A stretch of DNA of 64,000 nucleotides from Saccharopolyspora gloriosae (lineage in GTDB: Bacteria > Actinomycetota > Actinomycetes > Mycobacteriales > Pseudonocardiaceae). Under the pieces are notes generated by a model. The model was given only the letters and a program-made list of their open reading frames with translations, did no database searches and was not told the DNA's origin. A program made the translations under genes and the position numbers. Below, piece after piece: positions 34,071 through 47,400 of the stretch (its first letter is position 1; every line of letters begins with the position of its first letter). The stretch spans positions 6,061,470 through 6,125,469 of the forward strand of contig NZ_CP059557.1 of assembly GCF_022828475.1 (NCBI RefSeq). The letters are read 5' to 3'.

Positions 34071-34200
34071 CGGCGAAGCCGTGCCTGTATGCGCGAAGCG
34101 CACAGCCCACGTCAAGAAGCCGACCACCGGCGGGTTCTCAGCTGTCTTCTCGCGAGGACGGCTTTTTCGCAGCGAGAAGACAGCTGAGGTTCCGCCACCC
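34071..34200 (+). repeat. Structured intergenic palindrome family, copy 1, with 52-base companion block
   Basis: The core has perfect 17-base arms at 34137-34153 (CTCAGCTGTCTTCTCGC) and 34172-34188, preceded by ACCACCGGCGGGTT and followed by GTTCCGCCACCCGG. This copy has a short 18-base loop, unlike the other three. The 52 bases at 34071-34122 recur in inverted orientation at 40534-40585, beside copy 3. It lies between convergent DUF6542 and ispH genes, so a bidirectional terminator role fits. Confidence 0.8.
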
Positions 34201-34236
34201 GGACACCGAAGCAAACCCACCGAGCGGAAGAACGTC

Positions 34237-35274
34237 TCAGCGAACGCCCTTCGGCGCGTTCGGGTTTTCTTTGAGGTCCTTGCGCAGTTCCTTCGGCAGC
34301 GAGAACTGGATCTTCTCGTTCGCGGTGGTGACCTCTTCCACCTCACCGTCCCAGCCGTGCTGCGACAGGTGGTCCAGGACCTGCATGACCAGCACGTCCG
34401 GCACCGAGGCACCGCTGGTGACGCCGACCGTGGTCACGCCCTCCAGCCAGGAGTCCTCGATCTGGTCCGCGTAGTCGATCAGGTGCGAATCCGAGGCTCC
34501 GGCCTGCAGCGCGACCTCGACCAGGCGCTTCGAGTTCGACGAGTTCTCCGACCCGACGACCAGCACCAGGTCGCACTCCGCGGCCATCGCCTTCACCGCG
34601 ACCTGGCGGTTCGAGGTGGCGTAGCAGATGTCGTCGCTCGGCGGTGCCTGCAGATCCGGGAAGCGGTCCTTGATCTGGTCGACCCGCTCCATCGTCTCGT
34701 CGACGCTGAGCGTGGTCTGCGACAGCCACACGACCTTGTTGGGGTCGCGCACGTTGACCTTGTCGACGTCCTCCGGCTTGTCGACGAGCTGCACGCGGTC
34801 CGGCGCCTCACCGGCGGTGCCCTCGACCTCCTCGTGGCCTTCGTGGCCGATCAGCAGGATGTCGTAGTCGTCGCGGGCGAACCGGTTGACCTCCTTGTGC
34901 ACCTTCGTGACCAGCGGGCAGGTCGCGTCGATGGTGCGCAGGTTGCGGGCCTTCGCCTCCTCGTGCACCACGGGGGCGACGCCGTGCGCGGAGAACACGA
35001 CCAGCGCGCCTTCCGGGACCTCATCGGTCTCCTCGACGAAGATCACGCCGCGTTCCTGGAGGGTTTCCACCACGTGCTTGTTGTGCACGATCTCCTTGCG
35101 CACGTAGACGGGCGGGCCGTAGGTCTCCAGCGCCTTCTCCACCGTGATCACCGCACGGTCCACACCGGCGCAGTAGCCACGAGGTTTGGCGAGCAGGACG
35201 CGCTTGGCGGGCTCGCCCTCCGGGGTCGTCGTGTCCTGGTCGAGGCGATCAGCCGCCTGCGGCGAGGTGCTCAT
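34237..35274 (-). CDS. ispH: 4-hydroxy-3-methylbut-2-enyl diphosphate reductase
   Basis: A 345-residue enzyme of the last step of the MEP isoprenoid pathway; it makes IPP and DMAPP from HMBPP using a [4Fe-4S] cluster. The three cluster cysteines are visible in R-G-Y-C-A-G (Cys35), D-A-T-C-P-L-V (about 127) and [10 protein letters not shown] (about 220). Substrate-binding V-H-N-K-H-V-V and S-A-H-G-V are present, as is T-S-G-A-S-V-P-D near the end. ATG 35274 (M-S-T-S-P-Q) gives the normal length; 19 upstream codons in frame are ignored. Products feed the prenyl synthase encoded at 51.8 kb, among others. Confidence 0.97.
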
Positions 35275-35429
35275 GGTGTCCAGGGTACGGACCACCTCGC
35301 GACGGGTCAGCCCTGCGGCCGCCCACTTCACCGGTACCGCGCGTCACCCTCACCCGCCGCACGCGTGGCGGGCGAAGCTCATGTCCCAGGACGATGGTTT
35401 CCCAGGCGCGATTGCGGGAAGGTAGGGCC

Positions 35430-35894
35430 ATGTCGACGTATCCCTTGCCGATCCGGGTCGCGGCCGGACTCGCGACCGTCACCGTCGAACAGACCCGGCA
35501 GCTGCCCGCGCAGCTGCTCGGCCTGCCGCTGACCGTGGCCAGTCAGGCGCTGCAACTGTCCATGCGGGTGCAGCAGCAGATCACCGAACTGGCGATCCGC
35601 GGTGACGAGACGCTCAGCGCCTGGCAGGGCGTCGAGGACGAGCCGGAGTGGGCGACGTTCGACGAGGACGAACCCGCCGTGCAGCCACGACCGGTCGGCG
35701 TCCCCGAACCCGCGGGCGCCGACGTGCTCGCCGAATACGACGACATGACCCTCCCGCAGCTGCGCGGCAAACTCCGCGGCTTCTCCGCCGAGGACGTCGA
35801 GGCGCTGCTGGAGCACGAGCAGCGGCACGGCGAGCGGCCCGAGTTCCTCCGCATGCTCACCAACCGCCTCACCCGCCTGCGCGGCGAGGACTGA
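35430..35894 (+). CDS. Lipid droplet-associated protein family (Rv1109c-like)
   Basis: A 154-residue protein. The first 70 residues form amphipathic helices with many Leu/Val/Gln (P-L-P-I-R-V-A-A-G-L-A-T), suitable for lying on a membrane or lipid surface. A Pro/Glu linker follows, then a C-terminal helical motif L-R-G-K-L-R-G-F, E-D-V-E-A-L-L-E-H-E and R-M-L-T-N-R-L. This pattern and the place between ispH and xseA match the mycobacterial Rv1109c family, annotated as lipid droplet-associated; the family name is recalled. ATG 35430 follows GGAAGGTAGG. Divergent from ispH. Confidence 0.75.
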   Translation: MSTYPLPIRVAAGLATVTVEQTRQLPAQLLGLPLTVASQALQLSMRVQQQITELAIRGDETLSAWQGVEDEPEWATFDEDEPAVQPRPVGVPEPAGADVLAEYDDMTLPQLRGKLRGFSAEDVEALLEHEQRHGERPEFLRMLTNRLTRLRGED

Positions 35895-35936
35895 ACTTCA
35901 GCTTCGCAACCCGCACAGAACGATCTTTTGATCTTG

Positions 35937-36085
35937 TCAGCGGCGCAGCCGCTGAGCAGTGACCACCAGGGCAAAGGACCACCGGCGGGTTCTCAGCGGC
36001 TTCCTCGCGAGGACAGCGATTTCGCTCGCGGCGGAGCCACTTGCGAAATCGATCCCGCAGCGAGGAAGCCACTGAGGTTCCGCTG
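35937..36085 (+). repeat. Structured intergenic palindrome family, copy 2
   Basis: Outer arms of 17 bases at 35992-36008 (CTCAGCGGCTTCCTCGC) and 36060-36076, with one mismatch. An inner stem joins CGATTTCGC (36017-36025) and GCGAAATCG (36043-36051) around the conserved centre with GGCGGAGCCACTT. A separate small hairpin, TCAGCGGC-gca-GCCGCTGA, stands at 35937-35955 and is shared, less perfectly, with copy 4. It lies between the Rv1109c-like gene and xseA, which point the same way. Confidence 0.8.
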
Positions 36086-45441: not shown

Positions 45442-45478
45442 ACATCGGCAACGCTTTTCGAGCGGCTAACGCAGAGGC

Positions 45479-45507
45479 CCGGGTCCCGCCTCCGGCGGGG
45501 GTCCCGG
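45479..45507 (+). terminator. Hairpin after the DUF4288 gene
   Basis: CCGGGTCCCGCC-tcc-GGCGGGggTCCCGG forms a strong GC stem with a small bulge, 38 bases downstream of the stop. The rest of the 45442-45689 gap holds the guaB1 leader; no other gene seen. Confidence 0.6.
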
Positions 45508-45689
45508 CTTACTTCCACGCACCTCGGTGCGCAGCTACCACCCGAGCCAGCGACGCCTCAACACCGTTCGCCACCGCCAGGCGCCACACGTCCGGATGAT
45601 CTATGGCCTGTTCCGGCTCCTCTCCAGCCGGTGGTCGTCCCCGGTGAATCACGCCGTTTCGTCCTGCCCGGCACGTATCGTGGACGACT

Positions 45690-47129
45690 GTGCAGTTCTT
45701 GAACGGGCAGCAGCCCACCACCGACCTGACCTATGACGACGTGTTCCTGGCGCCGCGCCGCTCCGGCGTCGAGTCCCGGTTCGACGTCGACCTCTCGACC
45801 TCCGACGGATCGGGCACGACGTTGCCCGTGGTGGTCGCGAACATGACGGCCGTCGCCGGGCGGCGGATGGCCGAGACCATGGCTCGTCGTGGCGGGCTCG
45901 TGGTGCTGCCGCAGGACGTCGCACCCGGTGCCGTCGGCGAGATCGTCTCGTGGGTGAAGGAGCGGCACCCCGTCTGGGACACGCCGCTGGTGCTGCGCCC
46001 GGACGACGCGGTCGCCGACGTGCTCAACCTGCTGCCGAAGCGTTCGCACGGCGCGGTGGTGGTCGTCGACGACGATCGGCGACCGGTCGGCGTGGTGGAC
46101 GAGGCCGCCTGCGCGGGAGTGGATCGGTTCGCCCGGATCGGCGAGGTCGCCGACCACCACCCGGTGGTGCTGGCGCTGGAGACCAAGCCGCGCGAGGTCT
46201 TCGAGCAGCTCGACCGCCAGGGCAGGCAGGTCGCGCTCGCCGTCGACGCCGAAGGCAGGCTCGCCGGGATCCTCACCCAGCGCGGTTCGCTGCGTGCGGA
46301 GATCTACGCGCCCGCCCTGGACGATGCGGGCAAACTGCGAGTCGCCGCGGCGGTCGGCGTGAACGGGGACGTGCCCGGCAAGGCGGCCGCGCTGCTCGCC
46401 GCAGGCGTGGACACGCTCGTCGTGGACACCGCGCACGGCCACCAGGAAAAGATGATCAACGCGCTCCGCTCGGTGCGGGCGCTGGACCCGACGGTTCCGG
46501 TGGTCGCGGGCAACGTGGTCACCGCCGAGGGCGTGCGCGACCTCGCCGAAGCCGGCGCCGACGTGATCAAGGTCGGAGTCGGTCCGGGCGCCATGTGCAC
46601 CACCCGGATGATGACCGGCGTGGGCCGCCCGCAGTTCTCCGCCGTCGCCGAATGTTCCGCCGCGGCCCGGGAACTCGGCAAGCACGTGTGGGCCGACGGC
46701 GGCGTGCGGCACCCGCGGGACGTGGCGCTGGCGCTGGCCGCCGGAGCCTCCTCGGTGATGGTGGGCTCGTGGTTCGCGGGCACCCACGAATCACCGGGCG
46801 ACCTGCTGCGCGACGAGCACGGTAGGGCCTACAAGGAGTCCTTCGGCATGGCCTCCAAGCGCGCCGTCGGTGCCCGGACCCGCACCGACAGCGCCTTCGA
46901 CCAGGCGCGCAAGGCGCTGTACGAGGAAGGCATCTCCAGTTCCCGGATGAAGGTCGACCCGAAGCGCCCCGGCGTCGAGGATCTGCTGGACGAGATCAGC
47001 TCCGGCCTGCGCTCCTCCTGCACCTACGCGGGAGCGCGCACCTTGGCCGAGTTCCACGAGCGGGCACTGGTCGGCATCCAATCCGCCGCCGGCTTCGCGG
47101 AAGGACGCCCGCTGCCCACCGGCTGGTGA
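45690..47129 (+). CDS. guaB1: GuaB1-family IMP dehydrogenase-like protein (GMP reductase)
   Basis: A 479-residue TIM-barrel protein with two CBS domains inserted (about residues 95-205). Catalytic loop with Cys in [15 protein letters not shown] (about 300-314), N-M-T-A-V-A near 50, W-A-D-G-G-V-R near 345, and the mobile flap with [11 protein letters not shown]. In mycobacteria the GuaB1 protein was shown to be a GMP reductase with CBS regulation, turning GMP to IMP, rather than a true IMP dehydrogenase. GTG 45690. Not in an operon; followed by palindrome copy 4. Confidence 0.9.
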
Positions 47130-47237
47130 ATCCCCGCACCTGAAGACACGAAGGCCTCCAAGATGAGGGGCTCGCCGTCGGCCCGCCGGTGATCCCGCAC
47201 GTTTCGGCGTGCACCAAGGTTCGTCGTCCTTGTCATG

Positions 47238-47400
47238 TCAGCGGTAAGCCGATGAGCAGTGACCACCTGAGACACCGGACCACCGGCGGGTTCTCAGCGG
47301 CCTTCTCGCGAGGGCGGCAGCCCGGACCCAGATTTCGCCGAGCAGCGGTGCTACTCGAGAAATGGGTCCCGCAGCGAGAAGGCCGCTGAGGTTCCGCTAC
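47238..47400 (+). repeat. Structured intergenic palindrome family, copy 4
   Basis: Perfect 17-base outer arms at 47293-47309 (CTCAGCGGCCTTCTCGC) and 47374-47390. The inner stem pairs GGACCCA-ga-TTTC with GAAATGGGTCC, and a GAGCAG/CTaCTC top. Upstream it shares the TCAGCGG ... GCCGaTGAGCAGTGACCACC segment with copy 2. It is located between convergent guaB1 and phoH genes and fills the 47130-47442 gap. Confidence 0.8.

Follow-up and report, generated by a model that had tools for sequence, protein, structure and literature searches.

A large family of palindromic intergenic repeats in Saccharopolyspora and related genera, with a stem zone variable in sequence and conserved in pairing

Four window copies and the architecture of the repeat

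The DNA analysed here, called the window in the following, is a stretch of 64,000 nucleotides from the Saccharopolyspora gloriosae chromosome (NZ_CP059557.1), and four of its intergenic gaps carry copies of a palindromic, non-coding repeat. The gene borders are those of script-made gene calls, with no annotation used. Three of the four copies lie between convergent genes, as originally described, with gene ends at 33900(+)/34237(-) around copy 1, 40332(+)/40757(-) around copy 3 and 47129(+)/47443(-) around copy 4, and copy 2 is situated between tandem genes (35894, 36354). All four have 17-bp arms, the letters of which agree with those first reported.

The core of the repeat is about 101 bp long. 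On the strand of copies 1, 2 and 4 its left half reads CCACC GGCGG GTT, CTCAG, a 7-bp zone of free sequence, CTCGC and GAGGACAGC, and after an inner stem-loop the right half continues with GATCCCGCA, GCGAG, the partner of the free zone, CTGAG and GTT CCGC, mostly followed by YACC. The free zone, paired in most copies, is flanked by the conserved blocks CTCAG, CTCGC, GAGGAC and GATCCCGCA. The foot CCGCYACC (GGTRGCGG on the other strand) is found in 227 of 305 parsed copies, with TGAG in 25 and some other foot in 53. The predicted fold of one typical copy has energies of -74.9 and -72.4 kcal/mol on the two strands. Two types are distinguished by the sequences that adjoin the core. The left module of type B has the hairpin TCAGCGGCGAAGCCGCTGA, and intact copies have the end GGAGTCCTTTCAGAATGATC, which is repeated inverted at the right end. 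In type A the left module is an array of small hairpins with GAA loops, which ends in TATGTGCGAAGCACATAGCCCACGT, and the right tail is CGACCACCAAAGCAAAACGAGCC. In copy 1 a type A array is preceded by what seems to be a degenerate type B end, so that the two types seem related.

Copy 1 is a short-loop variant of the core (GGCGGGTT, 34129..34195, + strand) with arms at 34137-34153 and 34172-34188, then GTTCCGC. Its left module (33984..34123, +) consists of the degenerate left end of the miniature element (about 33986-34026), recognised by eye against full left ends, followed by a mini-hairpin array and a TATGCGCGAAGCGCA hairpin. Copy 2 has a type B core (35984..36084, +; arms 35992-36008 and 36060-36076), and its left module (35908..35978, +) holds a degenerate terminal inverted repeat (about 35908-35933) and the hairpin TCAGCGGCGCAGCCGCTGA. 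The single mismatch reported for this copy is a C opposite an A at stem position 6. Copy 3 has a type A core on the other strand (40427..40527, -; arms 40435-40451 and 40503-40519), and its left module (40528..40743, -) comprises a TATGCGC/GCGCATA hairpin and an array of GGCGAAGCC / GGCCGAAGGCC mini-hairpins, in which a 62-bp mini-hairpin unit occurs as two exact tandem copies (40576-40699). Copy 4 has a longer inner part (47285..47397, +; arms 47293-47309 and 47374-47390) and a type B left module (TGTCAGCGGTAAGCCGATGAGCAGTGACCACC, 47236..47284, +). The pairing described for the inner stems was also recovered, with CGATTTCGC/GCGAAATCG in copy 2 and CTTTTTCCC/GGGAAAAAG in copy 3. Native GC-rich hairpins adjoin copy 1 (33946-33977) and copy 3 (40332-40397), and these are also present in relatives without the element.

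By eye, the GAA-loop mini-hairpin arrays to the left of type A cores seem more degenerate farther from the core, as if they were growing beside it (window 40528-40743 and many other loci). Some type A copies form a subgroup with an additional array of GGGAAGGCTCTAAAACCC-like units on the right side (L008:1403, L044:7011 and L223:10018 in the S. gloriosae genome; L056, L060, L062 and L077 in its relative G001). A longer autonomous relative behind these right-extended copies was considered and rejected, since alignment of seven of them gave only another short repeat array and no shared gene was seen.

Family size and covariation of the stem

The window belongs to a Saccharopolyspora-group chromosome of 6.88 Mb (G000, the own genome), which was compared with relatives of the same genus (G001-G005) and of another genus (G018). 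A pattern of 18 edge bases, CCACCGGCGGGTTCTCAG, was searched with at most two mismatches, and the reversed pattern served as control. The original description as a family of four copies falls far short, since the family has hundreds of copies instead: the own chromosome contains 291 matches (144 forward, 147 reverse) versus 2 for the control. Sixty genomes were scanned; G001-G005 gave 312, 165, 112, 22 and 18 matches, G018 gave 108, and 53 of the 60 had 0-10 matches, mostly near their controls. One of these, G017 with 10 matches, is clearly positive by a covariance model built from 94 cores, and the edge pattern therefore misses diverged members. Among the matches listed in a scan of named genomes, most were in Saccharopolyspora species, some in Amycolatopsis and one in Sciscionella. 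The genome scan that had been proposed for this model placed the family in at least 41 of 150 genomes of the bacterial family and at least 13 of 46 genera; these counts are lower bounds because the number of candidates scored per genome was limited (up to 27, and up to 150 in a second scan). Rfam gave no match in the window and two on another locus of the set (L048), both far below the gathering score. Literature searches, which left most subscription papers outside, showed no report of this repeat family among the entries listed, and the long repeats described in the accessible part of PMC3610266 are different from it.

From the own genome 126 cores were collected in 61 stretches (1.26 Mb of the 6.88 Mb), namely the window and 60 stretches picked around exact pattern matches, and old copies are under-represented in this set for that reason. 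Across genomes 353 cores were gathered, 326 parsed and 305 retained. Covariation was computed on 94 cores chosen for length 101 and distinct arms. In these, 96.2% of the cells are standard pairs, versus 85.4% after shuffling and 42-51% when the partner is slid, and the covariation score of 0.314 (0.111 shuffled) was equalled by none of 500 shuffles. The variation is confined to a sharply bounded zone. At the seven pairs of columns 14-20 both sides change in 17-41 of the 94 sequences each, whereas hardly any change is seen in the five pairs on either side. Perfect arms, of 31 different sequences, are found in 152 of the 305 parsed copies. One identical 51-base middle is combined with several stem classes in the own genome, and the mixes of stem classes differ per species, some classes being common to several, on identical middles. 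A linkage of stem class to other markers is present, though weak (permutation p 0.002-0.02, four markers, 54 copies).

Single comparisons illustrate how the stems vary. In the stem a single compensated pair separates the L159 and L073 cores, which also differ at a few edge bases; between L042 and L067 there are two compensated pairs and several differing loop and edge bases. Some copies combine arms of two classes. One such chimeric core of the own genome (L034:9257-9370) has a left arm of class TTGGTC and a right arm of class TGAGCC, which is, at the level of its sequence, evidence of recombination between copies. Twenty-nine pairs of elements at orthologous sites were available, four of them with an unparsable arm. 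None of the 25 fully parsed pairs has a shared stem segment, and in one of the other four the readable arm is of the same class in both copies. Both copies are perfect in 15 of the 29 pairs, and the orientation is opposite in 11.

The earlier view that the stems are under selection for structure stands at the level of the family, where the 94 cores covary, and finds no support for the single locus in the own genome. There, perfect arms are present in 77 of 111 copies, 34 having uncorrected arms, and the unpaired cells of the outer stem (25 G-T, 22 A-C and 20 transversions) give no preference for wobble pairs, also when stem positions 9 and 17 are omitted (21 G-T versus 22 A-C). Upkeep of the structure at every single locus would predict an excess of G-T over A-C inside the stems. 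We infer from these patterns that pairing would be needed for spreading or exchange of copies, and not for termination at the individual locus. Where a hairpin is repeated, compensatory changes are not necessarily a sign of RNA function at every locus.

Placement behind genes and evidence of mobility

Of 122 copies in the own genome that could be placed, 53 are in convergent, 62 in tandem and 7 in divergent gaps, where 19.5, 60 and 20.5% are expected by junction count and 13, 56 and 30% by length. The proposed count at convergent junctions thus gave a clear excess, 53 of 122 versus an expected 13-20%, and the same trend is seen in G001 (13, 21 and 3) and G018 (17, 13 and 3). Of 69 type A copies, 53 have a gene 3' end as right neighbour, and in 47 of these 53 the core edge is 2-34 bp from the stop codon. 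Tandem copies in three genomes are oriented against the genes in 64 cases and with them in 32 (p=0.0014), and the element is therefore not symmetric to transcription. There is strong evidence of a preference for gene 3' ends, through insertion bias, tolerance or function. The suggestion of a bidirectional terminator or 3'-end element accordingly survives in the part that concerns placement; the terminator part finds no support in this asymmetry or in the sequence of the four window copies, none of which has a T-run directly after the full hairpin. A terminator scan of these copies matched only small inner or tail hairpins, with a scan model that holds no internal loops. Insertion exactly into the stop codon was considered as the origin of this placement and rejected, since it accounts for a minority: among the 22 copies that have an identified right end and face an incoming gene end, only 5 are at -1 or 0. 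Insertion on the lagging strand was rejected in view of the absence of replichore bias (46:54 and 44:56 among 100 listed exact matches in each of two genomes).

The junctions of the window copies were compared with those of relatives. No core is present at the copy 1 junction in G001, G002, G003 and G005, or at the copy 4 junction in G001, G003, G004 and G005, which in both cases are all four comparable relatives, the copy 1 junction of G004 and the copy 4 junction of G002 falling at contig ends. The stretch 33984-34236 is absent at the orthologous copy 1 site of G001 and G002; in G003 and G005 the gap at this junction hardly aligns, and the result there is limited to absence of the core. At the copy 3 site G003 and G005 have no core, the stretch 40388-40756 being absent in G003, and G001 has a deleted remnant with the same GTGTC arm. 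The copy 2 junction in G001 carries a different element in opposite orientation, and further empty orthologous sites were found beyond the window copies. Judged by these comparisons of sequence, the element is mobile.

A candidate route of mobility was found for type B. Paired inverted ends of about 20 bp surround 8 distinct type B cores (10 listed, two of them seen twice), which measure 218-239 bp end to end in 8 copies, with TNA at several ends. The same inverted ends are found on a 908-bp insertion sequence (L233:9646-10553) with an intact open reading frame of 280 aa, which is an IS5-family transposase (NF033580 IS5, E 1.6e-68). This IS5 element has four identical copies in the own genome, all four with TTA at both flanks. 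We infer that type B is a miniature IS5-type element. One of the IS5 copies directly adjoins an apparent CRISPR array (L279:2380-2600) with repeats like GGAACCATCCCCGCGTGCGCGGGGCCGAC.

The repeat is also the target of a second insertion sequence, of the IS481 family (369 aa, NF033577, E 6.1e-106), which is present nine times in the own genome (E<=1e-80; L284, L286-L293), two of these copies having an internal stop. All nine are inserted at one spot of the repeat, GGTTCCGCTACC followed by the insertion sequence and GCTACC, in both orientations and with GCTACC duplicated. Only 51 of the 532 GCTACC sites in the own DNA examined, which is enriched in the element, are at an element edge. The repeat is therefore a homing site for this IS481-family element. 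A relative of the insertion sequence in G005 (74% identical) is inserted elsewhere.

Interpretation and comparison with known systems

On balance we lean towards a large family of mobile palindromic non-coding repeats that live in short gaps behind genes and whose structure is read during spreading. Type B copies would be mobilised by IS5-type transposases that duplicate TNA, and the hairpin core may be read by a protein, or by a replication or recombination step, during copying or exchange. This step would need pairing in the 7-bp zone and no given sequence, which would explain why the mix of stem classes differs from one species to the next. Type A copies, which lack inverted repeats, probably spread or are overwritten by recombination between copies, and the different stems at orthologous sites may be due to this proposed process. 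After insertion the copies would decay in a roughly neutral manner. Their placement behind stop codons would reflect an insertion preference together with removal of copies that hit genes or promoters, and any influence on transcript 3' ends would be a side effect.

Several observations weigh against this reading. In the other genomes G-T exceeds A-C (48 versus 25, p=0.0095, stem positions 9 and 17 omitted), and this excess fits selection on a folded single strand; the strongly biased position 9 adds 56 further G-T cells, 52 of them outside the own genome and 50 in named genomes. In 17 of 19 tandem type A copies the distance to the stop codon is 11-33 bp, which is tighter than simple tolerance needs, the median of element-free tandem gaps being 143 bp. 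Element junctions are shared beyond expectation with G001 (8, p=0.016) and NFXS83 (9, p=4e-8), in a test whose 2x2 tables handle only partly that these loci were mostly fetched because they bear the element, and recurrence at the same junctions is as compatible with a functional demand as with a hot spot. Beyond the own genome, the IS5 element has a single truncated relative in G001, and five other genomes lack it at E<=1e-60; it may therefore not be the present mobiliser. Of the 8 type B copies in which both ends were located, only 2 have identical 3-bp flanks, and convincing inverted repeats were not found in type A (of 72 copies, 65 gave no match at all and 7 a weak one).

These points have to be set against what the alternatives explain. 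A functional 3'-end element, in which the hairpin is kept at each locus to end transcription or to protect the mRNA of the gene reading into its right side, is in our view possible and rather unlikely. It would account for the convergent excess and the scarcity of divergent copies (7 of 122), for the closeness of the right edge to an incoming stop codon in type A (47 of the 53 with a gene end on that side), for the 64:32 orientation, the junctions shared with G001 and NFXS83, the 48:25 excess of G-T and the very stable predicted fold. However, the wobble preference is missing in the own genome, and where G-T is in excess it is on the strand with CCACCGGCGGG at left, which in the preferred orientation is antisense to the right-hand gene. 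Orthologous sites are empty, none of 11 element junctions is shared with G002-G005 and G018, and 6 of 17 shared junctions are in reversed orientation; the native hairpins are retained beside copies 1 and 3, and the T-run is lacking. Compensated stems could also arise without selection, if template switching between the arms during replication carried a mutation over to the opposite arm. Such switching is to be expected in long near-perfect palindromes, the own copies have no wobble preference, and mini-hairpins of the flanks are compensated as well (TATGTGC/GCACATA, TATGCGC/GCGCATA, TAATCGC/GCGATTA), yet this explanation is doubtful, since 34 of 111 own copies keep uncorrected arms, chimeric arms persist, and correction alone leaves unexplained why the free zone is so sharply delimited from the invariant blocks.

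Two further possibilities concern the enzyme that would recognise the repeat. With the GTRG-type foot in 227 of 305 copies, the bottom strand starts with GGTRGCGG; next come a conserved AAC/AAC mismatch, a lower stem that is likewise conserved and the sequence-free zone, a layout much like that of the Escherichia coli repetitive extragenic palindrome (REP) recognised by TnpA-REP, as far as the accessible part of PMC8266576 describes it. A REP- or REPIN-like repeat spread by a single-strand tyrosine transposase of the REP-associated kind (RAYT) is nevertheless very improbable: no Y1 transposase (PF01797) was found in the high-copy genomes G000, G001, G002, G003 and G018, such enzymes were found only in the low-copy G004 and G005, the reverse of what a RAYT system would give, the core is at least twice the size of a REP, and there is no replication-related orientation bias. 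RAYT is thus unlikely as the present mobiliser. Another idea, itself improbable, is that the paired 7-bp zone is a class tag, that a novel enzyme other than RAYT or an IS5 transposase bound to terminal inverted repeats recognises the invariant blocks of the folded core, and that copies are exchanged or overwrite each other in place. If true, the family would be a case of bacterial repeats spreading at gene ends through structure-guided replacement, in which the tags turn over fast and in a species-specific way while pairing is strictly kept.

The family occurs in an actinomycete group of antibiotic producers, and it separates the sequence-conserved from the structure-only parts of a mobile hairpin unusually sharply. 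Hundreds of copies, sites that vary between species and dozens of stem variants amount to a natural experiment on whether folded strands are read during mobilisation.

By kind, the repeat is a structured mobile repeat close to miniature inverted-repeat transposable elements (MITEs) and REPs. IS5-family MITEs resemble type B in the inverted repeats of about 20 bp common to an IS5 element of the genome, and in TNA at several ends. The strongly conserved central hairpin core with its free 7-bp zone is a difference from these MITEs, as are the type A copies without inverted repeats. Integron attC sites are likewise folded sites with variable but paired sequence. They differ in having inverted GTT/AAC triplets at their two ends, while the present repeat has both of its GTT triplets on one strand. 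Correia elements, BOX and ERIC are small mobile palindromic elements at gene borders. In these respects, compared by description only, they are similar to the present family; a sharply bounded zone of free but paired sequence in the stem is not mentioned in the accessible parts of their descriptions. With REP, BIME and REPIN sequences, as the accessible parts of PMC3733652 and PMC8266576 portray them (compare PMC3116915), the family has in common the hundreds of intergenic palindromes, the GTRG foot in most copies, the conserved mismatch of the lower stem and the role as target of insertion sequences; a share of REPs is close to stop codons, as here (PMC12306157, in part), and REPs are likewise homing sites for other insertion sequences (PMC1525189, in part). 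It differs from them in a core of 101 bp versus 20-50 nt and in the high-copy genomes, where no RAYT was found. Four features distinguish the present family: the size, a free-but-paired zone with sharp borders, the absence of a detected RAYT and the role as an IS481 homing site.

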